From an uncultured Clostridia bacterium (GTDB lineage Bacteria; Bacillota; Clostridia; Christensenellales; Borkfalkiaceae), in NCBI GenBank assembly GCA_944368775.1, contig CALVXB010000001.1:62001-126000 (forward strand): DNA of 64,000 nucleotides, written 5' to 3'. Positions 3,819-62,374 of the stretch are shown piece after piece (position 1 is the first letter of the stretch; every line of letters starts with the position of its first letter). The notes under the pieces are model-generated. The model was not told the origin of the DNA, did no database searches, and was given only the letters and a program-made list of their open reading frames with translations. Both the position numbers and the translations under genes were made by a program.

Positions 3819-4856
3819 ATGATCAATAACATCGAAAGCACCGTCGCCTCCACCCGCATCCGCCTCGCGCGCAATTTGGAGGGGTATCCCTTCCCCAACC
3901 GCCTCAACGACGCCGAGCAGGCGCGCGAGATCGTGCGCGCCGTGCAGGCCGCTGCCAGCCGCATCCGCAGCTTCCGCCTCTACCGCATGGACGTCATTTC
4001 GGAGGACGTCGCCCAGGCCATCTGCGACGACCACCTCATCAGCGCCCAGCTCGCCGCCAACCGCGCGTTCGGCGCGGCGCTCATCGACGAGGAGGGGGAC
4101 GGCGAGGACCCCGCGGGCAAGTTTTCCATCATGCTCAACGAGGAAGATCACCTGCGCGAGCAGTATATCCTTCCCGGCCTCAACCTGCCGCTCGCATACC
4201 GCAGGCTGTCCGCCGTCGACGACGAGCTCTCCAAAACGCTGCCCTTCGCCTTCGACCGCACGCTCGGCTATCTCACCGCCTGCCCGACCAACCTCGGCAC
4301 GGGGATGCGCGCCTCCGTCATGCTCTTTTTGCCGGGGCTCACGCGCACGAACAAGATGGACCGCCTCATCCTCGAGATCTCTCAACTCGGCCACACCGTG
4401 CGCGGCGTGTATGGCGAGGGGAGCGCGGCGGAGGGGTATATGTATCAGGTCAGCAACGAGGTCACGCTGGGCGTGAGCGAAGATTATATCTTGAACGAAG
4501 TGCAGCGCGCGGCGCTGGAGATCGTCAATCTCGAGTCGCAGGCGCGGCGGGCGCTGCTCGCGGGCGACGCCGTCGGCATCAAAGACGAGTGCTGCCGCGC
4601 CTACGGCATTTTGAGCAACTGCGAGCGCATCTCGTACGCCGAGTTCCTGCAATATGCGTCCGACGTCAAGCTGGGCGTCGCGCTCGGATTTTTGCAGACG
4701 GCAGAGTTTTCCGCGCTGGACGAATTTATCGCCGCCATGCGCCCCGCCAACATCGGCTTATATTCGGATGAAGCGCTCACTTCCGCCGAGCGAGACGTCT
4801 ATCGCGCCCGACGCTGCCGCGACGAGATGGCGCTCGTCCGCCGGGCCGCCGAGTAG
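3819..4856 (+). CDS. mcsB: Protein arginine kinase McsB
   Basis: 345 residues, the usual length. It has the phosphagen-kinase fold signatures of McsB: STRIRLARNLEGYPFP near the N-terminus, ACPTNLGTGMRASV in the catalytic core (around 150-165), and VRGVYGEGSAAEGYMYQ (around 190-207). McsB phosphorylates arginines of unfolded proteins, marking them for ClpCP degradation. It lies between mcsA and clpC, separated from clpC by 130 bases with a hairpin. All expected catalytic motifs are present. Confidence 0.95.
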   Translation: MINNIESTVASTRIRLARNLEGYPFPNRLNDAEQAREIVRAVQAAASRIRSFRLYRMDVISEDVAQAICDDHLISAQLAANRAFGAALIDEEGDGEDPAGKFSIMLNEEDHLREQYILPGLNLPLAYRRLSAVDDELSKTLPFAFDRTLGYLTACPTNLGTGMRASVMLFLPGLTRTNKMDRLILEISQLGHTVRGVYGEGSAAEGYMYQVSNEVTLGVSEDYILNEVQRAALEIVNLESQARRALLAGDAVGIKDECCRAYGILSNCERISYAEFLQYASDVKLGVALGFLQTAEFSALDEFIAAMRPANIGLYSDEALTSAERDVYRARRCRDEMALVRRAAE

Positions 4857-4952
4857 CGCGGCGCGCGGGCGCGCCTTCAAAGCCGTATGCGCCCGCGGCG
4901 GCGCCAAAGAAGGCAGGTCTGCCGAAAAAGCACGGCCGGAAAAACAAAGAGT

Positions 4953-4973
4953 CGGCCGCCCGCGCGGCGGCCG
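4953..4973 (+). other. Hairpin upstream of the clpC ribosome site
   Basis: CGGCCGCC / GGCGGCCG with a 5-base loop, directly before GGGGAG and the clpC start. There is no T tract, so it is not a terminator; it may modulate clpC translation or mRNA stability. Confidence 0.4.
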
Positions 4974-4986
4974 GGGAGTTTAGTTC

Positions 4987-7491
4987 ATGTACGATTTCAA
5001 TCAGTTTTCGCCCAACCTCCGCAAGGCGGTCAAGCTCTCGCTGGAGGCGGCGCAGTATTACGGAAGCAGCTACGTCGGCAGCGAGCACATCCTCTTCGGG
5101 ATGCTCAACGTTCCCAACTGCCGCGGCGCGCAGATCCTGCAGGCGGTGGGCGTGCGCGAGCCCGACTACCGCGCGGTGTTCGTGCGCACCCTCAATAAAA
5201 GCGTCAAGCTCAGCGGCTTCACCCCCCGCACCAAAAATATGTTCGACAAGGCGTGCGAGCTCGCGGTCGACCGCGACGGCGCGGGCGCGAGCGTGGGCAG
5301 CGAGCATATGCTCTTTGCCATCCTCGTCGACGACGAATCGGTCGCCGTCCGCCTGCTCCGTATGCTCGGCGTCGACATCGAGGCGCTGCAGGGCGCGCTG
5401 GACGAGGAGATGGGCGTCCCGCCCGAACCGGACGAGGCGGAGGAGCGCAGGCGCGCAGAGATCTTCCGCCGCCACGTCGCCAAGCAGTCTCCGGTGGAGG
5501 AGATGTCCGGCGGCAAGAGCGCGGGCGGCGCGGGCATCCGCTTCGGCGTCGACCTGACGCAGAAGGCGCGGGAGGGGAAGATCGACCCCGTCATCGGCCG
5601 CAAAAAGGAGATCGACAAGATCATCCAGGTGCTCTCCCGCCGCACCAAAAACAACCCCGTGCTCATCGGCGAGCCGGGCGTCGGCAAGAGCGCCGTCGTC
5701 GAAGGGCTCGCGCAGGCGATCGTCAAGGGCGAGGTGCCCGACCTTCTCTCGGGCAAGACGGTCTTTTCCCTCGACCTGCCCGGCATGCTCGCGGGCGCAA
5801 AGTACCGCGGCGACTTTGAAGAGCGCCTCAAAGACGTCATCGAACAGGTGCAGAGCAACGGCAATATCATCCTGTTCATCGACGAGATCCACAGCATCGT
5901 CGGCGCGGGCGCCAGCGCGGACAACAGCATGGACGCGGCAAACATCTTAAAGCCCATGCTCGCCCGCGGCGAATTGCAGACGATCGGCGCGACGACCATC
6001 GACGAATACCGCAAATATATCGAAAAAGATTCGGCGCTCGAGCGGCGCTTCACGCCCGTCTACGTCGAGCAGCCCAGCGTGGAGGAGACCATCGAGATCT
6101 TGCGCGGCCTGCGCGACAAGTACGAGGCGCACCACAAGGTCACCATCTCCGACGACGCGATCGTCGCCGCCGCCAGCCTTTCCGACCGCTATATCACCGA
6201 CCGCTTTTTGCCCGACAAGGCGATCGACCTCATCGACGAGGCGGCCAGCCGCGCGCGGCTGGACAGCTACAACGGCCCCGCCGGCATCAAGGAGAAGGAG
6301 CACGAGATGGAGCGGCTGCTCGCCGAAAAGAACAAGGCCGCCCGCCGCGACGACTTCGCCACCGCCCAGCAGGTCCTCGACCGTATGCGCAAGGTGGAGA
6401 TGGAGATCGACGCGCTGCGCAAAGAGTGGGAGCAGAAGCGGGGCGAGACGCACGCGACCATCGGCTCGGACGACGTCGCCAAGATCGTGGCGAGCTGGAC
6501 GGGTATCCCCGTCGTCAAACTGACGGAGGAGGAGAGCACGCGCCTCTTGCACCTCGAAGAGGAGCTGCATAAGCGCGTCATCGGGCAAGACGAGGCGGTC
6601 AGCGCCGTCGCCAAGGCCATCCGCCGCGCCCGCGCGGGGCTCAAAGACCCCAACCGGCCCATCGGCTCCTTTATTTTCGTCGGCCCGACGGGCGTCGGCA
6701 AGACGGAGCTCTCCAAGGCGCTCGCGGCCGCCATGTTCGGCGACGAGCGGCTCATGATCCGCATGGACATGAGCGAGTTCATGGAAAAACATTCGGTCAG
6801 CAAGATCATCGGCGCGCCCCCGGGCTACGTCGGTTTTGAAGATACGGGCGGGCAGCTCACCGAAAAGATCCGCCGCAAGCCCTATTCCGTCGTGCTCTTC
6901 GACGAGATCGAAAAGGCGCACCCCGACGTGTTCAACGTCCTCTTGCAGATCCTCGACGACGGCCGCCTGACGGACAGCAAGGGCAGGGTGGTCAGCTTCA
7001 AAAACACCATCATCATCATGACCAGCAACGTCGGCGCGGGCAAGGTCAACGAGATGCGCCGCCTCGGCTTTGCGGGAGAAGGGGAGCCCTCCAAGGAGGA
7101 GGACGCCGAGTACGACCGCATGAAGGAGAAGATCACCGACGAGCTCAAATCGCAGTTCAAGCCCGAGTTCCTCAACCGCATCGACGAGATCATCATCTTC
7201 CACAAGCTCTCCCGCGCGGACGCCGCGCGCGTGTGCGACCTGTTCCTCTCCGTCCTCACCGCCCGCCTCAAAAAGCGCGAGATCGACCTCGACATCACGG
7301 GCGCCGCGCGCGAGCAGCTGCTCGACGAGGGCTACGACGCGGTGTACGGCGCGCGCCCGCTCAAGCGGGTCATCCAGCGCCGCATCGAGGACGCACTCAG
7401 CGAGGAAATTTTGGCGAATAAGGTCGCGCCCGGCCAGCGGGTGCGCGTGGACGCCAAAGACGGCAAATTTATGTTTGAACCGCTCCGCTGA
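4987..7491 (+). CDS. clpC: ATP-dependent Clp protease ATP-binding subunit ClpC
   Basis: 834 residues. Domains in order: double Clp-N repeat (1-150), AAA+ D1 with GEPGVGKSA (around 221), a middle region with a UVR-like helical segment (around 430-480) that in the family binds adaptors such as McsA/MecA, AAA+ D2 with GPTGVGKTE (around 564), and a C-terminal ClpB_D2-small domain. It unfolds McsB-marked proteins and feeds ClpP. It is the third gene of the mcsA-mcsB-clpC cluster. The M-domain is short as in ClpC, which separates it from ClpB. Confidence 0.96.
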
Positions 7492-10122: not shown

Positions 10123-11202
10123 TCAGTCGAAGTCAGGCCTGTCGAAGCGGTAGTTGCCGCCCACCGTCTCGTAGACGTAGTACGAGTTGCCCGCCTCGTC
10201 CGTCTCCACGCGCACGGTGTAGGCGGTGCCGCCCTGGCGGCTGCCGACGTAGATGCGGATGCCCCTGCGGCCTTCCTGCTCGAAGTAGAAGGTCTGCGTC
10301 TGCCCGTCCTTGGTCAGCAGCAGCTCGATCTCCGTCTCGCCCTCTTCCTGCTCGAAGCTGAACGAGCACCGCTCGACGATGCGCCCGTTTTCGCGGATGG
10401 TGTAGGCGTACTCCTCTTCGCGCTCATCCCATTCGCTCTCCTGCTCCTGCGTCACAACCATCGTCCGCGTATCGCTCATCTGCACGACGAACTGCGTCTC
10501 GCTCTCCGACTCATCCCACTCGGTCTCCGCCTCGGTGCGGCCGTAGATGGGGTACTCCGCGCCGTCCACCAGCATCACGCCGTCGATGTCATAGACGCGC
10601 TCGTCGTCGTAGCGGTCGTCCCAATCATCGTCGTAGCGGTCGTCATCGTAGCGGTCGTCGTCGTAGCGGTCGTCGTTGTAGCGGTCATCCCAATCGTCAT
10701 CGTAGCGGTCGTCAAGGTCGGCGCTTGTATTCAAAACGCTTCTCGCGTCGCCGTAGTAGCCGCCGCGCTCCGTCTCGTTGTAGTAGAGGATGTACGAGAG
10801 GGTGTTGCCCTCGATGTCACGGTAAGAGACCGTCGCTTTCACCGCATACTCCGCGCGGTCGGAAGCCTCCGTCGTCATGCCGAACGCCCCGTCGCCGAGC
10901 AGCCCTTCCACCAAAAACATATAGTCGTTGAGCGACTCGATCGTCGCCTCGTCCGTCACCTCGCTGCGGGCGAAGCTGTAGCCCTTCGCCACCGCCAGCT
11001 GCTGCGCGCTGCCGCCCTGCATCGCGGAGAGGATGGAGCCCGCCGTCGCCGCGCTGAACCCGTAGCTGCTCTGCGTCGCGTCCTCCGCGCCGCTCACGGC
11101 GCCCTGGCCCTTTTCCGTACTGCCCGTATTGCAGGCGATCAAACCGACCGACAGCCCGAGCGTCATTGCGATAGCCAACAAGATCATAACGATTTTTTTC
11201 AT
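10123..11202 (-). CDS. Asp/Tyr-rich lipoprotein paralogous to the anti-sigma outer domain
   Basis: 359 residues. The start was chosen at the ATG behind AGGGAG, which gives a clean lipoprotein signal (MKKIVMILLAIAM, lipobox with Cys24). The mature part begins with a GSILSA segment, then a YMFLVEGLLGDGAF helix. At residues 162-200 comes a repetitive tract of DDRY/DDDW units, then beta-rich sequence (YDIDGVML, ETEWDESESETQFVV, FEQEEGETEIEL). The segments on both sides of the tract align by eye with the extracytoplasmic domain of the anti-sigma-like protein at 14075-15511 (YAIEGVLV, ESETESETQFTAYL, YEEEEGELELKM). No known enzyme motif. Its promoter matches that of the ECF sigma gene, so it is probably in that regulon. 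A surface sensor, decoy or cation binder is possible; function unknown. Confidence 0.8.
   Translation of the reverse strand: MKKIVMILLAIAMTLGLSVGLIACNTGSTEKGQGAVSGAEDATQSSYGFSAATAGSILSAMQGGSAQQLAVAKGYSFARSEVTDEATIESLNDYMFLVEGLLGDGAFGMTTEASDRAEYAVKATVSYRDIEGNTLSYILYYNETERGGYYGDARSVLNTSADLDDRYDDDWDDRYNDDRYDDDRYDDDRYDDDWDDRYDDERVYDIDGVMLVDGAEYPIYGRTEAETEWDESESETQFVVQMSDTRTMVVTQEQESEWDEREEEYAYTIRENGRIVERCSFSFEQEEGETEIELLLTKDGQTQTFYFEQEGRRGIRIYVGSRQGGTAYTVRVETDEAGNSYYVYETVGGNYRFDRPDFD
10604..10716 (-). repeat. Tandem coding repeat (DDDRY units) in the lipoprotein
   Basis: Near-identical 12-15-base units encoding D-D-(D)-R-Y/W, about eight in a row. Such a tract can change copy number by slippage, altering the length of the acidic segment. 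Confidence 0.75.
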
Positions 11203-11256
11203 GGTGATTTCTCCCTTTGGTTGTTTTTGTGAACGGTTCCGGTTCTCGTTACACCA

Positions 11257-11286
11257 ATACAACAGCGCAAAGGCGCAAATTGTTGG
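11257..11286 (-). promoter_or_regulatory. ECF-type promoter of the lipoprotein gene
   Basis: On the - strand, CCAACA (11281-11286), 16 bases, TGTTGTAT (11257-11264), preceded by AAAAAATTTTGCA. The same boxes with the same 16-base gap lie upstream of the ECF sigma gene (16048-16077). Shared boxes, spacing and upstream A/T tract point to recognition by that sigma factor. Confidence 0.7.
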
Positions 11287-11347
11287 CGCTCTGCAAAATT
11301 TTTTGAATTTTTTTTTCGTTCGATTTTTTGAAGCACTCTCGCGCGGC

Positions 11348-11576
11348 TTATTTTGCGGCTTTTGAAATACTTTTATGCTGCCGTATCGCCTGTTTTTGAA
11401 TTTGCCCCGCGCAGCCGTTGATCTCTTCTGCGGCGGCTGACGCCGCCGCCGCGCGCAAAAAGGCCTCGATCTCGGCAAAGGCGGCGCGGGCAGGCGGGTA
11501 CGTACACCCATTCGCGGGCGAAACGCGCGAGCGTATAGGCGCCGTCCGTAACAAATGTGCTTTTATCAAGAGCAAA
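11348..11576 (-). pseudogene. Broken gene remnant at the island edge
   Basis: On the - strand, one frame reads FVTDGAYTLARFAREWVY and then, after a frame change near 11500, another reads PARAAFAEIEAFLRAAAA...KSISKAAK and a stop at 11348-11350. Both pieces have protein-like composition and together resemble the C-terminal part of a helical protein. The 5' portion is absent: the DUF262-HNH gene begins right there. I read it as a host gene truncated by island insertion. I cannot name the family. Confidence 0.4.
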
Positions 11577-11577
11577 C

Positions 11578-12696
11578 TTACTGCGCCCCTTTTCGCAAGT
11601 TGCAGTCGCGGCAAAGCATTTGACAATTGTCGGGCACTGTTTTTCCGCCCTTGCTCCAAGGCGTGATATGATCGGCGTGCATTTCTTCGAATTTGCATTC
11701 CTTTCCGCAAATTGCGCATTTATGTCCTTGTCTTTCATATGAGGCAAGGGCATCGCGACGGTCAAATGCTCGAATTGACAGACATTTTTCGTTACCCGTC
11801 AAAAGGTATTCATAAATGCCGGACTTTTTTGTAACATCCTCGTCACCCATAAGACGTTGTATTTCCTGTTCCAACTTTCTGGGGTCAAGGTCAGTTCGTG
11901 TTCCGTGTTGATTGTAGAATAAACCCCACGGCAAGCCCTTCATCTCTCTACGTGTTTGGGGGAAGATTGCCTGTACCCATTCAATGACGGAGCGGAAATA
12001 ACTCCAAAGGGATACGGCACTGGGGTCGTGCTGATGCTCGGCCATATATCCTTCGATGCTTTTCCCTTCAGCATTTGCTGCCCAAAAGATTGCTGTTTCA
12101 AGGTATTCTTGCCGAATGGATGCTCCTTTTAAGTAGTCGTCTGCAATCCTTGACGCCGCACAGCCGGTCTTGGAAAAATAACGTTTCGCATCCGATACCC
12201 AACTGCCGGCATATACAGCATTTCGCAGCTCCTGATCGGTCAGTTCTTCACCCGCGATATTGATAATTCGGAACCAATCTAATTTTTCACTGTCTGAACC
12301 GCTGCACACATAAACAAACAGCTCATAATCAAGAATCTTTTTCTGCTGATCGCTCGGAAGGTTGCCAAAAAACTTATCGTCAACGGAAAATGAGCCATCA
12401 ACGTATTCACACAAGGAAATCGTTCGTTGCTGACCATCCATCACTTCAAAACGTGGCTCGTCGTTGTCGGTCTCGTACTGCTCTCCGCGATCTACCCAGT
12501 ACATCACATTCAGCGGAAGTCCTTTTAGGACGGTACGAATGACCTCGTCGCGCTGACTGTCTTTATAAACAAACTCTCGCTGGTACTTGGGGCGAATATC
12601 CAGATTTCCGTTATACCCAACGACGCCTTCTTCTGCATCATTGAAGTAGCCTTCATATAAATCTCGAACGGTAATTTTCTGTTCCTTAATTTCCAT
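11578..12696 (-). CDS. DUF262 (GmrSD N-type) protein with C-terminal HNH nuclease
   Basis: 372 residues. The N-terminal two thirds is a DUF262/ParB-like domain with the hallmark DGQQR motif (FEVMDGQQRTISLCEYVDG, around residues 85-103) plus IRPKYQREFVY near residue 32. In GmrS, BrxU and SspE this domain couples NTP hydrolysis to nicking or modified-DNA sensing. The last 50 residues form an HNH zinc-finger nuclease: CAIC...ADHITPWSKGG...N-Q-LCRDCN. Its ATG overlaps the stop of the methyltransferase gene (TAATG), so the two are translationally coupled. Base composition is much more AT-rich than the flanks, indicating transfer. Likely the restriction or nuclease half of a defence module. Confidence 0.88.
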   Translation of the reverse strand: MEIKEQKITVRDLYEGYFNDAEEGVVGYNGNLDIRPKYQREFVYKDSQRDEVIRTVLKGLPLNVMYWVDRGEQYETDNDEPRFEVMDGQQRTISLCEYVDGSFSVDDKFFGNLPSDQQKKILDYELFVYVCSGSDSEKLDWFRIINIAGEELTDQELRNAVYAGSWVSDAKRYFSKTGCAASRIADDYLKGASIRQEYLETAIFWAANAEGKSIEGYMAEHQHDPSAVSLWSYFRSVIEWVQAIFPQTRREMKGLPWGLFYNQHGTRTDLDPRKLEQEIQRLMGDEDVTKKSGIYEYLLTGNEKCLSIRAFDRRDALASYERQGHKCAICGKECKFEEMHADHITPWSKGGKTVPDNCQMLCRDCNLRKGAQ

Positions 12697-13781
12697 TATG
12701 TGTTTTCCTCCTTTGGTAGCTCTGGATGTTTGTTGCGAACCAATACTCGTCCGTACTTTAGTTTCCCATTTATGTATGGCCCATCTTTCCCTGTCTTTGA
12801 AACAATCCCGGCTAACCCACGAATATTTCCAGCAATCAAGCCAACTATTTCAAATTGATCGGGGTTGTATTTATCCATGAATGTGATGGGAACGCCCATT
12901 GTCCCAGGGTAATCATATGGAATGTCTTCTGTTTTATTTACATTTATTGCATCATAATTATCATAGCAGACGTATTCTTCAGAGGAATATCTTTTTACCA
13001 AAATCAGCTCATCGTGTCGTTGTTTTATATCCAAATTTGTATACCAGCGAACACCTTTTACACGAATGTATCGTTTCCCATCGGGCTCAACTCCGCATCC
13101 GGCAGCATTTAGTGGATAATCATCCGGAACGTAGAATTTGCGATCTCCGGAATGGATGCTCGCGCCGATCCACATTTGGTTGTTTTTTAAAAGTGGAAAG
13201 ATTTCTTTATAGGTAATTGCATTGACATTTCCAATAATAATAAACTTCTTTTGATGCTTTATCAAAATATCAACATAGTCGCGAAAAAGCGAAAAGGGAG
13301 GGTTTGTTACAACGATGTCCGCTTCATCTAGCAAAGCGATACATTCTGGGGAGCGAAAATCGCCGTTTCCTTCCAATTCGGTCAACTGGTTCTCTCCCAT
13401 CCGAAACAGTTCGGCAACGTCAAGCATATCAATGCCGCCATCTCCGGTAGTATCATATACCTTTGTGATGATTGCCTTGTAAGGCTTATTTCCGCTTTCT
13501 TCTTTTTGGTCTATAATGTCAAATAAAGACAGCTGCTGCCCTGCGATGGGAGAATCGGTATAACAAGTGGAAATCAGCTTCTTTAATCCGAGACGATTAA
13601 AGTTAAGGGCGAAGTACTTAAAAAAATTACTTTCAAAAGGATCGTCGCAGTTACAAAAGACGGTTGCCCCTTGAAAATATTTGCGGTAATACCGCATCTC
13701 CTTTTCAATATCGGTCAACTGTGTGTAAAACTCATCTTTTTTCGCGTTTCTTGCTGCACCCAAATCTGCGTTTTTGGCCAT
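12696..13781 (-). CDS. EcoRI-type adenine-specific DNA methyltransferase
   Basis: 361 residues of the EcoRI methylase family. Visible motifs: KKDEFYTQLTDIEKE near the N-terminus, CNCDDPFESNFF (around 42-53, the cofactor-region motif of this family), and VVTNPPFSLFRDY (around 156-168, catalytic motif IV NPPF of N6-adenine methyltransferases). It should methylate adenine at a specific site, using S-adenosylmethionine. It is the first gene of a two-gene operon with the DUF262-HNH nuclease and has its own promoter. Low GC marks it as part of an acquired island. The recognition sequence cannot be deduced; no typical EcoRI-like endonuclease is present. Confidence 0.9.
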   Translation of the reverse strand: MAKNADLGAARNAKKDEFYTQLTDIEKEMRYYRKYFQGATVFCNCDDPFESNFFKYFALNFNRLGLKKLISTCYTDSPIAGQQLSLFDIIDQKEESGNKPYKAIITKVYDTTGDGGIDMLDVAELFRMGENQLTELEGNGDFRSPECIALLDEADIVVTNPPFSLFRDYVDILIKHQKKFIIIGNVNAITYKEIFPLLKNNQMWIGASIHSGDRKFYVPDDYPLNAAGCGVEPDGKRYIRVKGVRWYTNLDIKQRHDELILVKRYSSEEYVCYDNYDAINVNKTEDIPYDYPGTMGVPITFMDKYNPDQFEIVGLIAGNIRGLAGIVSKTGKDGPYINGKLKYGRVLVRNKHPELPKEENT

Positions 13782-13844
13782 TTACTCTCCTCCGTCACTT
13801 AAACGACAAATTTAGTCCGAAAGTATATATGGGACTTTGTATGA

Positions 13845-13873
13845 ATTATAGCAGATTGTAAGTATAAAATCAA
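13845..13873 (-). promoter_or_regulatory. Promoter of the methyltransferase-nuclease operon
   Basis: On the - strand, TTGATT (13868-13873), 17 bases, TATAAT (13845-13850), with TGC before the -10 box. It lies 64 bases upstream of the methyltransferase start. Confidence 0.8.
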
Positions 13874-14031
13874 TAGCTTATTTAGTTTTTGTCTAACAAT
13901 AAAACTAATAGAAGGTTGTGTTGTCTATTTCTTTGTCAGGAGGCGATTGCCTTTTACTCGATCGCGCGCAGTGCGGCCGCGCTTTGCTTCTCTCAAATTT
14001 CGCTGCAAAAGCGCTTTGCGCGCAAAAAACA
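13874..14031. other. Island right flank
   Basis: AT-rich up to about 13940, then host-like GC-rich sequence. The change in composition marks the probable right end of the island. I see no integrase, no att-like direct repeat shared with the left edge (about 11577), and no gene. Confidence 0.45.
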
Positions 14032-14063
14032 AAAGGCGGAAGCCCCGTTTGCAGGGCTCCCGC
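14032..14063 (-). terminator. Terminator of the sigma/anti-sigma operon
   Basis: On the - strand, GCGGGAGCCC / GGGCTTCCGC with an 8-base loop, followed by CTTTTGTTTTTT, 12 bases after the anti-sigma stop. Confidence 0.85.
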
Positions 14064-14074
14064 ATATCGTTCGA

Positions 14075-15511
14075 TCAGTTGCGGCCGGGGCGATCCCACC
14101 GATCGCCATCGTCGTCATCGTCATCATCATCATCATCATCGTCATCGTCGCCGTCGTCATCGTCGTCATCGCCGCCGTGATCGCCGCCGCCGTGATCGCC
14201 GCCGCCGTCATGATCGTCGTCATCGTCATCATCGTCATCGTCGTCGTCATCGTCGTCGTCGAAGCGGTCATGATCGCCGTAGTGCCCGTCGCCGAAGTCG
14301 TAGCGATAGCCGCTGTTGCCGTTTTCGTCGAAGATGGATATGGTAAAGCGCACGCGCTCGCCGCCCACCGTCGCTTCGGCGCGCAGGGTGCCGTCGCGGC
14401 TGTCCTCGTTCGAGAACACGATCACGTCTTTGTCTCCGCTCTCCTTCTGCACGGTCATCTTCAGCTCGAGCTCGCCCTCTTCTTCCTCATACTCGACGAC
14501 GGTGCGCTCCGTCCAGCGGGCGCTCGTGCCGTCGTTGTAGATATAGACGTACCGCTGCTGCGTCTCCGTCTCGCCCTCTTCGGCCTCGTGCGAGCTTTCC
14601 TGCTCCATGCGGATATAGGCGGTGCGCGCCTCGTTGAGGTAGGCGGTAAACTGCGTCTCGCTCTCCGTCTCGCTCTCGCCGCCGTCGTATTCGCTCTCCG
14701 CCTCGCGCCGCCCTTCCATGGGGTAGGCGACGCCGTTTTCGGGCACCAGCACCCCCTCGATCGCGTAGTATTCCTCCGTCTCGTCCCCGTCAACGTGCGC
14801 GCCCAGCGGCGTCATGTCGTAGTAGAGGTCGCTGCGGATGCGGACTCCGAGCAGGTCGGTGTGCCATACGGTCGTGTGGTAGGCGTACTGCGCGTACTCG
14901 CCGCCCGCGGCCGCCGTCTCGTGCTCGATCGCCCCCTCGCTGAGCAGCTCCTCGACGAGCGCCATGTACCCGTTGATGGTCTCGGCGATCGCCTCCTGTT
15001 CCTGCGTCAAACTGCGCGAAACCGCCTCCGCCGCCGCGAGCAGTTCGCTCGTATTTATGGCGGAAGGGGAGAGGGAAGCGCTGCGCACGGCGGTCACGCT
15101 CTTCAACGCCGCCGCACTCTCCGCCTGCGCGCTCGCCGCGGCCGCGGCCTGCCCGCCGCTTTCGCGCGCCGACAGGATAGAACCGACGGACGCCGCCCCG
15201 TAGGCGTAAAAGTCGTCCGTGCTCTTGATGTCTAAAAATTTGTCGCCCGGGAGTGTGATGTGCGGCGCGGGCGTGCGTAAAAAGACGGGCAGCAGGATGC
15301 CCAGCGCGAGCGCGACGGCGAGCAGCCCCGCCGCAACGGCGATCCAAAGCGTCTTTTTGCCGCGCACCGCGGCTGTGCCGCCGTGCGCGTAGGTGGCCTC
15401 CCGCTCGGCGGGCGCTTCGTAGCCCAGCTCGCGGCGGATATTTTGCTTGACGCGCTCGTCGGGGAGGACGGCGGGCGCCTGTTCGGCCAAAAGCTTTTTC
15501 AGTTCTTTCAT
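14075..15511 (-). CDS. Membrane anti-sigma-like protein with poly-Asp tail
   Basis: 478 residues, overlapping the ECF sigma stop by ATGA. Residues 1-50 are a short charged cytoplasmic part, residues 54-79 one membrane helix (around LWIAVAAGLLAVALALGILL), and the rest is outside. The outer part has a GSILSA segment, an INGYMALVEELLSEGAI helix and Glu-rich beta stretches. It ends in a tail of about 60 residues made almost only of Asp, Gly and His. Position and topology say anti-sigma factor; I see no zinc anti-sigma HxxxCxxC motif. The outer domain is paralogous to the lipoprotein at 10123-11202, which lacks the poly-Asp tail but has a DDRY tract. The acidic tail suggests binding of cations or cationic peptides as signal; this is inference. 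Confidence 0.8.
   Translation of the reverse strand: MKELKKLLAEQAPAVLPDERVKQNIRRELGYEAPAEREATYAHGGTAAVRGKKTLWIAVAAGLLAVALALGILLPVFLRTPAPHITLPGDKFLDIKSTDDFYAYGAASVGSILSARESGGQAAAAASAQAESAAALKSVTAVRSASLSPSAINTSELLAAAEAVSRSLTQEQEAIAETINGYMALVEELLSEGAIEHETAAAGGEYAQYAYHTTVWHTDLLGVRIRSDLYYDMTPLGAHVDGDETEEYYAIEGVLVPENGVAYPMEGRREAESEYDGGESETESETQFTAYLNEARTAYIRMEQESSHEAEEGETETQQRYVYIYNDGTSARWTERTVVEYEEEEGELELKMTVQKESGDKDVIVFSNEDSRDGTLRAEATVGGERVRFTISIFDENGNSGYRYDFGDGHYGDHDRFDDDDDDDDDDDDDDDDHDGGGDHGGGDHGGDDDDDDGDDDDDDDDDDDDDDGDRWDRPGRN
14095..14270 (-). repeat. Poly-Asp codon tract (GAT/GAC with GGC/CAC)
   Basis: Simple-sequence run of GAY codons encoding the anti-sigma tail, interrupted by DHGGG units. 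Slippage-prone, so tail length may vary between strains. Not a CRISPR or intergenic repeat, because it is in frame in the gene. Confidence 0.8.
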
Positions 15512-16035
15512 CGTCCGTCCTCCTTTTCTAAATAGTGTTTCAGCTTTTTCAGCGCCTCGTTGTTGCGCCAGGTAACCGTGCCGATGGGCATATCCAGCAT
15601 CGCGGCGACCTCCCGCCGCTTATATCCCGCCACCTGGCACAGCATCAATATTTCGTACTCCTCTTCGGAAAGAATTTTTGCCGCCGCGTCGAAGATGTAG
15701 GGCAGCTCCGTCTCCCGCGCCCCGTACCGCCAGGCGTCCGTCTCGAAGTCCGTCGCCACCTCACGCTTGGCCTTGCGCAGGTGGTTGAGCGCGAGGTTTT
15801 TGCCGATGCGCGTCAGCCACGCGGTAAAATTCGTGCCGGGCGCGTACGAGCCGAGCGAGCGCAGCGCCCGCACATACGTCTCCTGCAGCAGGTCCTCCGC
15901 GTACATCTTGTCGCGGACGACGTAGAGGATGGCAAAGTACACCGGGCGGTTGGTCATCTCGTATATGCGGTCGAAGGCGCGCGTATCTCCCGCGCGCAGG
16001 GCCTCGATCTTTTGTTCCAGTCCGCTGCTCTTCAT
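15508..16035 (-). CDS. ECF-family RNA polymerase sigma factor
   Basis: 175 residues with sigma region 2 (RAFDRIYEMTNRPVYFAIL, DLLQETYVRAL, WLTRIGKNLALNHLR) and region 4 (LSEEEYEILMLCQVAGYKRREVAAML, GTVTWRNNEALKKL), no region 3: the ECF layout. It is followed by the overlapping membrane anti-sigma-like gene, the usual two-gene arrangement. Two promoters lie upstream: an ECF-type one that suggests autoregulation, and a sigma-A-type one. The lipoprotein gene at 10123 carries the same ECF promoter. The signal is unknown. Confidence 0.92.
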   Translation of the reverse strand: MKSSGLEQKIEALRAGDTRAFDRIYEMTNRPVYFAILYVVRDKMYAEDLLQETYVRALRSLGSYAPGTNFTAWLTRIGKNLALNHLRKAKREVATDFETDAWRYGARETELPYIFDAAAKILSEEEYEILMLCQVAGYKRREVAAMLDMPIGTVTWRNNEALKKLKHYLEKEDGR

Positions 16036-16047
16036 ACTCTCTCACAG

Positions 16048-16077
16048 ATACAACACCCGAAAAGCGAGTTTTGTTGG
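16048..16077 (-). promoter_or_regulatory. ECF-type autoregulatory promoter of the sigma gene
   Basis: On the - strand, CCAACA (16072-16077), 16 bases, TGTTGTAT (16048-16055), with AAAAAATTTTGCA upstream, as at 11257-11286. The -10 box ends only 12 bases before the ATG, so the transcript would have a very short leader. Confidence 0.65.
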
Positions 16078-16119
16078 CGTTTTGCAAAATTTTTTCAAGT
16101 CATTATTTTCGCCGCTCCT

Positions 16120-16349: not shown

Positions 16350-17360
16350 ATGCACAAGCTGAAAAAGAGGACGGGCGCATTGGCAGCGATCCTGCTCGCG
16401 GCGATGTTGGTGCTCGCCGCGGCGGTACCGCCCGCCGCGGCGGCGGAGCGCGAGGTGTATATCGGCGGGATGCCGGCGGGCTTTACGCTGGGGATGGACG
16501 GCGCGCAGATCGTCGGCTTCTGCGAGGTGCTCACCAAAGAGGGCACGCGCAGCCCCGCCAAAGAGGCGGGGCTGGAGGCGGGCGACCTCATCCTCTCCTT
16601 CGGCGGCATGCGCGTGACGACGGTCGCCGACATCGACGCGGCCATCCGCGCGGGCGGGGGCAGAGAGGGGGAGATCGTCGTCCGCCGCGGCGGCGAGCGC
16701 GTCAAGGCGAACCTGCTCCCCGCGCAGGACGCGGCGAGCGGGCGGGGGCGGCTGGGCGTGCTCGTGCGCGACAGCATCTCGGGCATCGGCACCGTCACCT
16801 ACATCGAGGCGGGCAGCCTGCGCTTCGGCTCGCTCGGCCACGCGGTCGCGGGCGAGGATGGCGCGGCGATGCAGGTCGGGCAGGGCGACATCTACCGCTG
16901 CAGCATCGTCGACGTCGTGCGCGGCGCGCGTGGCAGGGCGGGGGAATTGAAGGGCGTATTCTTAAACGACAGGCGCATCGCCGTCGCCGACCGCAACTGC
17001 GGCGCGGGCATCTACGGCTACTTTGACCGCAGCTACGACTTTTCCTGCCTGCGCCGCGCGCAGATCGGCGAGGACGCGCACCCCGGCGAGGCGAGCATCG
17101 TCACCACGGTAGACGGCGTCGCGCCGCGCGAGTACGCCGTATCCATCGTCAAGGTGGACGAGGGCAGCAGGAGCAACAAAAACTTTGTCATCAAGGTGAC
17201 GGACGAGGCGCTGCTCGCGGAGACGGGCGGCATCGTGCAGGGGATGAGCGGCAGCCCCATCCTGCAAGACGGCAGGCTGGTCGGCGCGGTCACGCACGTC
17301 TTTCTCAACGACCCGACGCGCGGCTACGGCATCGCGATACAGAATATGCTGGGCAATTAA
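16350..17360 (+). CDS. spoIVB: SpoIVB signalling serine peptidase (S55)
   Basis: 336 residues behind a GGAGGAAG ribosome site. There is an N-terminal signal/membrane segment (around 8-32), a PDZ domain (about 50-120, RSPAKEAGLEAGDLILSFGG), then the S55 peptidase domain. The catalytic His lies in SLGHAV (residue 164) and the nucleophile Ser in GMSGSP (around 300), followed by the family signature GAVTHVFLNDPTRGYGI. SpoIVB is secreted from the forespore into the intermembrane space and cleaves SpoIVFA to release pro-sigma-K processing. Together with sigK at 2273 it shows a working sigma-K checkpoint and a spore-former. Confidence 0.94.
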   Translation: MHKLKKRTGALAAILLAAMLVLAAAVPPAAAAEREVYIGGMPAGFTLGMDGAQIVGFCEVLTKEGTRSPAKEAGLEAGDLILSFGGMRVTTVADIDAAIRAGGGREGEIVVRRGGERVKANLLPAQDAASGRGRLGVLVRDSISGIGTVTYIEAGSLRFGSLGHAVAGEDGAAMQVGQGDIYRCSIVDVVRGARGRAGELKGVFLNDRRIAVADRNCGAGIYGYFDRSYDFSCLRRAQIGEDAHPGEASIVTTVDGVAPREYAVSIVKVDEGSRSNKNFVIKVTDEALLAETGGIVQGMSGSPILQDGRLVGAVTHVFLNDPTRGYGIAIQNMLGN

Positions 17361-60949: not shown

Positions 60950-62374
60950 ATGTATCTGCGAGACGGAAAACTTCCGTACGACGGCATGCACGAGGAGTGC
61001 GGCGTATTCGGCGTGTACAGCACCGAGACGCGCGACGTCGCGCATACCGCCTACTACGGGTTATACGCCCTGCAACACCGCGGGCAGGAGAGCTGCGGCA
61101 TCGCCGTGGCCTATGCCAACAAAATTCAGTATTATAAGGGGATGGGGCTGGTGCCCGAGGTGTTTGCGAACGGCAACCTCGATTCGCTGCCCGAAGGGGA
61201 CATCGCGATCGGCCACGTGCGCTACTCGACGACCGGTTCGAGCTCGCTGCTCAACGCGCAGCCCGTCGTATTCACGGGCAAGTGCGGGCGGATGGCGCTG
61301 GCGCACAACGGCAACCTGACCAACGCGCGCGAACTGCGCGAAGAACTCATCCGCGGCAACGCCGTATTCCAGACGAGCATCGACTCGGAGGTCATGGCGC
61401 TGCTCATCAACCGCTGCAGCGACGGCGACATCGTCAAGGGCGTCATCGAAGCGTGCAACCGCTTTTGCGGCTCCTTCGCGCTCGTCGTCATGACGACGGA
61501 CAAGCTGATCGCCGTGCGCGACCCGTACGGCATCCGCCCGCTCGTCTTGGGCAAGAGCCTCGACGACACCGTCGTCGCTAGCGAGTCGTGCGCCATCGAC
61601 GCGATGGGTGCGACCTTCGTGCGCGACGTCAGGCCGGGCGAGGTGGTGGTCATCGATGCGTCCGGTGAACGGTCGTTCTACCTCGAGCGCAAGGACCGCG
61701 CCGCGTCCTGCATCTTTGAATACGTCTACTTTGCCCGCCCCGACAGCGTCATCGACGGCTGCGGCGTGTACGAAGCGCGCAAGCAGGCGGGGCGCATCCT
61801 CGCCCGCACCTGCAAGATCGACGCCGACATCGTCAGCGGCGTGCCCGATTCCGCCGTGGTGGCGGCGCGCGGCTACTCGGAGGTATCAGGTATCCCGTAT
61901 GTAGAGGCTTTGGAGAAGAACCGCTACGTCGGCCGCACCTTCATCCAGCCCGACCAACACATGCGCGAGAGCAGCGTCAGCCTCAAGATGAACGCGCTGC
62001 GCGCCAACATCCGCGACAAGCGGGTGATCATCATCGACGACTCCATCGTCCGCGGCACGACCAGCCGCCGCATCGTGCGCATGCTGCGCGACGCGGGCGC
62101 GCGCGAAGTGCATATGCTCATCTGCTCGCCCGTCGTCAAAAACCCGTGCTGTCTCGGCATCGATATGCAGACGCGCTCGCAGCTGATCGGCGCGGGCCGC
62201 ACGGTAGAGGAGATCTGCGCCTTCATCGAGGCAGATTCCCTCCATTACCTCACCGTCGACCAGCTCAAGGAGACGTGCGGGGCGTGTAAACTCAACTTTT
62301 GCACCGGCTGTTTCGACGGCAATTACCCCTATGCGCTGGAGGACTACCGGGAGGATAAATTCAAACTCGAGTGA
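60950..62374 (+). CDS. purF: Amidophosphoribosyltransferase
   Basis: 474 residues. ATG chosen behind GGAGGG; a GTG six codons upstream is also open but overlaps the purC end. A 16-residue pro-peptide ends before Cys17 (HEECGVFGVYS), the glutaminase nucleophile exposed after self-cleavage. The PRPP-binding loop VIIIDDSIVRGTTSRR lies near 360. The 4Fe-4S cysteines follow the Bacillus pattern (CGACKLNFCTGCF near the end). First committed purine step. Confidence 0.96.
   Translation: MYLRDGKLPYDGMHEECGVFGVYSTETRDVAHTAYYGLYALQHRGQESCGIAVAYANKIQYYKGMGLVPEVFANGNLDSLPEGDIAIGHVRYSTTGSSSLLNAQPVVFTGKCGRMALAHNGNLTNARELREELIRGNAVFQTSIDSEVMALLINRCSDGDIVKGVIEACNRFCGSFALVVMTTDKLIAVRDPYGIRPLVLGKSLDDTVVASESCAIDAMGATFVRDVRPGEVVVIDASGERSFYLERKDRAASCIFEYVYFARPDSVIDGCGVYEARKQAGRILARTCKIDADIVSGVPDSAVVAARGYSEVSGIPYVEALEKNRYVGRTFIQPDQHMRESSVSLKMNALRANIRDKRVIIIDDSIVRGTTSRRIVRMLRDAGAREVHMLICSPVVKNPCCLGIDMQTRSQLIGAGRTVEEICAFIEADSLHYLTVDQLKETCGACKLNFCTGCFDGNYPYALEDYREDKFKLE

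Follow-up and report, generated by a model that had tools for sequence, protein, structure and literature searches.

In Escherichia coli, RseB, an outer protein under sigma-E control, feeds back on the anti-sigma factor RseA, though RseB is no copy of the RseA outer domain and the sigma-E regulon is large. In Clostridium thermocellum, the outer part of the anti-sigma factor RsgI includes a substrate-binding domain whose type recurs in products of the SigI regulon; in that case the domains bind carbohydrates, the targets are enzymes and SigI is not a classical extracytoplasmic function (ECF) factor. Here we compare these systems, and the sigma-V systems of Clostridioides difficile and Bacillus subtilis, with a trio of genes for an ECF sigma factor, an anti-sigma factor and a lipoprotein. 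The trio lies on the minus strand of a 64,000-nucleotide stretch (the window; positions 62,001 to 126,000 of contig CALVXB010000001.1) of the 1.78 Mb, 22-contig genome of an uncultured Clostridia bacterium of the family Borkfalkiaceae, with a nuclease/methylase cassette between the anti-sigma and lipoprotein genes.

RsiV is a lysozyme receptor consisting of DUF4163 plus DUF3298 (PMC5014341). In C. difficile, the sigma-V operon also encodes LbpA, a membrane-bound relative of RsiV that lacks the sigma-binding domain and binds lysozyme, while sigma-V of B. subtilis controls oatA, encoding a lysozyme-resistance enzyme (both from PMC9044953). An earlier reading of the window from its letters alone (the sequence-only reading) knew of no such arrangement among described ECF systems; C. 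difficile sigma-V/RsiV/LbpA is a precedent, with a different sensor domain (PMC9044953). A search of titles and abstracts in the open-licence PubMed Central literature (Borkfalkia sigma factors; ECF or anti-sigma factors of Christensenellaceae; paralogues or decoys) returned no description of the system analysed here. Its protein-coding parts are as follows.

15508..16035, minus strand: ECF sigma factor, 175 amino acids, with Pfam matches Sigma70_r2 (8.6e-16) and Sigma70_r4 (1.9e-6)
14075..15511, minus strand: anti-sigma factor with one transmembrane segment, 478 amino acids, which adjoins the sigma gene in relatives too
14276..15259, minus strand: outer (sensor) domain of the anti-sigma factor, amino acids 85-412, supported by an AlphaFold2 model and the match to the lipoprotein
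10123..11202, minus strand: lipoprotein, 359 amino acids, lipobox Cys24, paralogue of the anti-sigma outer domain

The sigma protein has the layout of an ECF factor, being short, with regions 2 and 4 above cut-offs and no region-3 family listed, and it scores 73.4 bits against the NCBIfam sigma70-ECF superfamily (cut-off 42.9). The start of the anti-sigma gene overlaps the sigma stop as ATGA, and from this genome context the product is predicted to be the cognate membrane anti-sigma factor. Its most hydrophobic 21 residues (amino acids 57-77) form the sole such segment; the cytoplasmic N-terminal part is basic (isoelectric point 9.2) and the outer domain acidic (4.25 without the tail). Cys24 of the lipoprotein is invariant in 16 of 16 aligned lipoproteins, a set picked by its lipobox-like start. 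The lipoprotein, described in the sequence-only reading as a soluble copy of the sensor domain, is predicted to be anchored at the surface rather than freely soluble. At locus L099, the gene in the lipoprotein position (4242-5243) lacks the lipobox Cys, and that copy may be free or anchored by its signal peptide.

The locus resembles B. subtilis sigma-V/RsiV in joining an ECF sigma factor to a one-pass anti-sigma factor with an outer receptor domain, and probably in release of the sigma factor by stepwise proteolysis, but the outer domain is unrelated in sequence to that of RsiV. As with csfV/rsiV/lbpA of C. difficile, a paralogue of the anti-sigma outer part that lacks the sigma-binding domain is predicted to lie at the surface (PMC9044953 for C. 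difficile), and the promoter sequences and their conservation suggest that the paralogue is likewise controlled by the same sigma factor. In contrast to RsiV (PMC5014341), 0 of 70 relatives match DUF4163 or DUF3298 in Pfam at E 0.01, although a distant kinship in fold may exist. Whereas lbpA is part of the sigma operon, the lipoprotein gene here is mostly under its own promoter, and whereas C. difficile sigma-V also controls pdaV and the dlt genes, this genome yielded no further target. What is new is the sensor domain, the near-exclusive regulon and the spread of the system across an order.

The sequence-only reading had judged the two outer domains paralogous by eye and named a profile alignment as the check. 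BLASTP between the anti-sigma outer domain and the lipoprotein gave 4e-18, and alignment of separate profiles (17 anti-sigma factors, 16 lipoproteins) gave 2.8e-63 over 280 columns, confirming the relationship for the outer domain only; nothing in the lipoprotein corresponds to the cytoplasmic part. The two paralogues share the same residue in 37 columns, and some other columns differ consistently between them. Glu and Tyr are frequent among the residues conserved in the outer domain, and Lys and Arg are almost absent. In the models of both paralogues, about 15 conserved carboxylates flank successive hairpin turns of the predicted fold, as in the following part of the anti-sigma factor.

14465..14791, minus strand: anti-sigma amino acids 241-349, modelled hairpins with conserved carboxylates that form a predicted acidic rim

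Neither the anti-sigma factor nor the lipoprotein matched a Pfam family at cut-off or an NCBIfam model at 0.1, and 70 relatives searched against Pfam and 56 against NCBIfam gave scattered weak matches, each in at most three members. A PDB sequence search with the A2 domain profile, from an alignment with both kinds of protein, returned no match up to E 1. No LolA, RseB or RsiV entry was among the best 50 of each fold search, though kinship in fold with any of these may still exist. The nearest entries, which were not significant, include lipid carriers, and no solved protein with an RseB/LolA-like or ORD-like lipid-binding fold was matched significantly.

Both transcription units are preceded by the same promoter-like box and upstream tract.

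16048..16077, minus strand: predicted sigma/anti-sigma promoter, CCAACA (16072-16077), N16, TGTTGTAT (16048-16055)
16083..16095, minus strand: A/T tract AAAAAATTTTGCA upstream of the sigma promoter
11257..11286, minus strand: predicted lipoprotein promoter, CCAACA (11281-11286), N16, TGTTGTAT (11257-11264)
11292..11304, minus strand: A/T tract AAAAAATTTTGCA upstream of the lipoprotein promoter

These boxes match the AAC, spacing and (T/C)GT that are usual in ECF promoters. Judged by sequence, the sigma gene has a promoter of the autoregulated ECF type, with AAC in the -35 element and a spacing of 16-17 bases. The sequence-only reading had assigned the sigma and lipoprotein genes to one promoter type and proposed a search of the genome for further copies. 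The search found CCAACA-N16-TGTTGTAT at two sites genome-wide, both exact, before the sigma and lipoprotein genes, with no additional exact match to indicate further regulon members. Allowing up to one mismatch again gave those two sites alone (one in the reversed control), and nothing beyond them stands out, since a looser search with up to two mismatches gave 37 matches across the genome compared with 57 in the reversed control. We also noted that the -10 element of the sigma promoter is predicted about 20 bases ahead of the start codon (window 16035-16055), as in most relatives. Such spacing would leave only a very short leader and place the ribosome-binding site across the transcription start.

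The relatives available for comparison are gut Clostridia assembled from metagenomes; the one that bears a species name is Candidatus Borkfalkia faecigallinarum (locus L179, order Christensenellales), whose anti-sigma factor is 69% identical in its best segment. The box is conserved in relatives, and cross-genome comparison supports both the single promoter type and the shared regulon well. From 301 family genomes searched, 75 regions around matches were retrieved. Scored as CAACA-N15-18-TGTT or GGTT, and with the window counted in both tallies, the box was found upstream of the sigma gene in 65 of 70 usable cases and of the lipoprotein gene in 55 of 57, the spacer being 16 or 17 in every case, compared with 19 of 6400 letter-shuffled upstream sequences. 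The sigma genes that miss are those of L094-L097, where the box lies ahead of a lipoprotein gene preceding sigma, and L101, which is one base off; the lipoprotein genes are those of L098 and of L096, which has a CGTT form. The relatives' consensus comprises an A-run, a T-run, CCAACAA, the spacer and TTGTTATA, and lipoprotein promoters continue with TAGGTG. The common upstream tract that the sequence-only reading described is conserved as an A-run and T-run, but its GCA is not.

The tallies leave out the truncated sigma of L102, lipoproteins with no detected lipobox (L047, L089, L099, L106) and lipoproteins scoring nearer the anti-sigma query (L043, L051, L056, L075, L094, L095, L097, L105). 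Among these lipoproteins, L047, L056 and L089 have the box, L094, L095 and L097 have a CGTT-form box and L105 has none; the box check covered these seven, with the promoters of L043, L051, L075, L099 and L106 outside it. At L049, L054 and L055 (genomes G161, G146 and G221), two boxes lie 80-90 bases apart before the lipoprotein gene, as if the promoter had been doubled.

Genome-wide counts also tie the box to the system. Of the family genomes, the 101 in which an anti-sigma factor was matched hold CCAACAA-N14-16-TGTTNTA at 115 sites, compared with 16 for the reversed control (binomial p 1.2e-19), and the other 200 hold it at 38 sites compared with 47 (binomial p 0.39); this comparison is conservative because G117, in the second set, has a distant relative right behind a box. 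Within the genus there are 63 box sites in 40 genomes compared with 7 controls, and 37 of the 40 have at least one. Sites were assigned to genes within the genus, using start-to-stop queries: 57 of 61 at the retrieved loci precede a sigma (21) or lipoprotein (36) gene, and the window's two bring this to 59 of 63, which predicts a tiny regulon.

Three layouts of the trio recur across the family and the order, and the box is kept in all. In 30 loci the lipoprotein gene follows sigma on the same strand, in 29 the two genes are divergent, and in 4 the lipoprotein gene precedes sigma on the same strand; another 10 retrieved loci have no called partner, and the window, unlabelled in this count, has the layout with the lipoprotein gene downstream. 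Where the lipoprotein gene comes first (L094-L097), a single box precedes the lipoprotein and sigma genes. At L209 and L213 a box is followed by two domain proteins with sigma between them. Outside the family, the box is present at 18 of the 24 loci retrieved from the order, 16 as TGTT and 2 as CGTT, and these 18 belong to families f3, f6, f19 and f32. In genus g78, L186 and L187 carry CGTT in both promoters and L188 and L190 carry TGTT in both. Such joint change of both promoters in one genome is what a single reader would produce.

The outer domains also bear traces of matched evolution. A quick tree of 129 domains shows 4 changes between the anti-sigma and lipoprotein labels, compared with 43 in shuffles, though one of the 4 depends on L099, whose gene in the lipoprotein position lacks the lipobox Cys and was labelled anti-sigma by the script. 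The paralogues split early. In a more careful tree of 44 of these domains, which form 22 hand-chosen pairs, the anti-sigma outer domains of G154, G164 and G179 fall inside the lipoprotein clade (100/100) as sisters to their own lipoproteins (99/98). A tree holding all anti-sigma domains together was rejected (p 0.026) for this group, which was singled out once the first tree had been seen. The cytoplasmic parts of two of the three nested anti-sigma factors (L086, L098) resemble those of other anti-sigma factors. Most simply read, a copy of the lipoprotein's domain has taken the place of the sensor domain, as would make sense if both proteins have to recognise one partner. Rooting may explain why the lipoproteins of G037, G050 and G004 branch beside the anti-sigma side.

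We judge it somewhat probable that the sigma factor reads one promoter type before exactly two transcription units, its own operon and the lipoprotein gene, and that the lipoprotein is a surface sink for the ligand sensed by the anti-sigma factor. The interpretation in the sequence-only reading is thus supported in part: titration of the signal by the lipoprotein, which it put forward as one option, is the reading we favour. The outer domain of the anti-sigma factor would bind a ligand outside the cell, probably a cationic one given the Glu- and Tyr-rich conserved residues with few Lys or Arg. Binding would trigger stepwise proteolysis, as suggested by analogy and by the family M50 site-2 protease encoded in the genome (6.6e-60), and the freed sigma factor would make more sigma factor, more anti-sigma factor and the lipoprotein. 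The latter would present the same domain without the sigma-binding part and take up ligand at the surface, thereby protecting the cell and perhaps, by negative feedback, helping to switch the response off.

Several observations weigh against this interpretation. The genus sites at L138, L140 and L145 precede other genes, so a few further targets are possible, and the site at L146 runs off its contig; in other families no box was found in 6 of the 24 loci (L197, L208, L211, L212, L214, L215), and several of the 24 are cut. Domain replacement depends on a post hoc test (p 0.026), fold searches with the models gave no significant match, and both ligand binding and control of the lipoprotein by the sigma factor are predictions. 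LbpA is reported to have no role in sigma-V activation or regulation (PMC9044953), which makes the feedback half of the proposal weaker than the protection half. Finally, a shared box and a shared domain fit an RseB-like partner equally well.

In this last alternative, the lipoprotein would pair with the anti-sigma outer domain as a heterodimer of paralogues and shield it from the first protease, giving feedback by contact rather than by removal of ligand. RseB, a sigma-E-controlled outer protein that binds RseA, offers a parallel, and the common domain, co-regulation and within-genome matching of both domains would serve such a partner too. We nevertheless regard it as unlikely, since the residues conserved in both proteins form a one-sided acidic set that resembles a site for a cationic third partner more than complementary faces. 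Less likely still is that the lipoprotein is plain output, a surface effector in, for example, metal or lipid handling that derives from the sensor domain and leaves signalling unaffected. The early split, the columns that differ between paralogues and the lipid carriers among the nearest fold entries would suit such a role, but the conserved positions are largely the same in both proteins (the 37 columns), and three genomes have a sensor domain whose closest counterpart is that of the lipoprotein. That the box is instead the operator of a dimeric regulator, as the imperfect inverted repeat AACAA-N-TTGTT visible in many boxes might suggest, is very improbable given that spacers of both 16 and 17 bases occur, that CGTT in the right half (L186, L187, L094-L097) breaks the symmetry with position kept, that the box is at control level in genomes with no anti-sigma match and that AAC, spacing and (T/C)GT agree with the usual ECF layout.

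Extending the ligand-sink proposal, we suggest more tentatively, as a possibility on the doubtful side, that this is an ECF module, present in several families of the order, devoted solely to receptor-decoy feedback, in which the surface copy of the receptor domain is all that the sigma factor makes besides its own operon, the Glu-rim domain holds polycationic ligands and sensor and decoy are kept matched by mutual replacement. An ECF system reduced to a receptor and a receptor copy would be a clean natural case in which to ask if a decoy controls the gain and duration of a membrane stress response. The system adds a sensor-domain family that has no model in Pfam or NCBIfam, is present in many members of a gut order and comes with a testable guess at its ligand class, and the promoter consensus lets others find it from DNA alone.

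The sequence-only reading also drew attention to extreme Asp-rich segments in both proteins.

14078..14263, minus strand: poly-Asp C-terminal tail of the anti-sigma factor, amino acids 417-478, not conserved
10585..10713, minus strand: Asp-rich insert of DRYDDD type in the lipoprotein, not conserved, a low-confidence loop in the structure model

These are real in this genome, where the richest 30 residues hold 23 and 18 Asp, but they are lineage-specific and vary widely in relatives. In the set labelled anti-sigma, which includes a few lipoproteins scoring nearer the anti-sigma query, the longest Asp run ranges from 1 to 24, and members of the genus alone have 24 (L033), 9 (L034) and 1 (L057). 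We therefore rejected poly-Asp as the sensing element. The segments may contribute negative charge locally, but a role as the sensor is unlikely, and because the extreme runs are lineage-specific, a cation-binding site is better sought in the conserved Glu set.

Two other features adjoin the trio.

11578..13781, minus strand: unrelated insert of a GmrSD-N/HNH nuclease and an EcoRI-type adenine methylase (Pfam 6.7e-18, 8.3e-15 and 6.3e-150)
16350-17360, divergent from sigma: SpoIVB-like S55 peptidase gene (TIGR02860, 292.4 bits, just below the cut-off of 305.25)

The nuclease/methylase insert is at the same place in 0 of the 75 retrieved family loci. At L033 and L034, an AraC-type regulator and an APH-fold kinase lie between the anti-sigma and lipoprotein genes, with an alpha/beta hydrolase as well at L033, and this interval may tolerate insertions. 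SpoIVB was rejected as a part of the system, as among the 75 loci it stands beside the trio only in the window and its close relatives L033 and L034. Another sigma-70 region-2 match lies on the plus strand of the window at 2429-2635 (2.0e-16; contig 64429-64635), and the genome has nine such matches in all.

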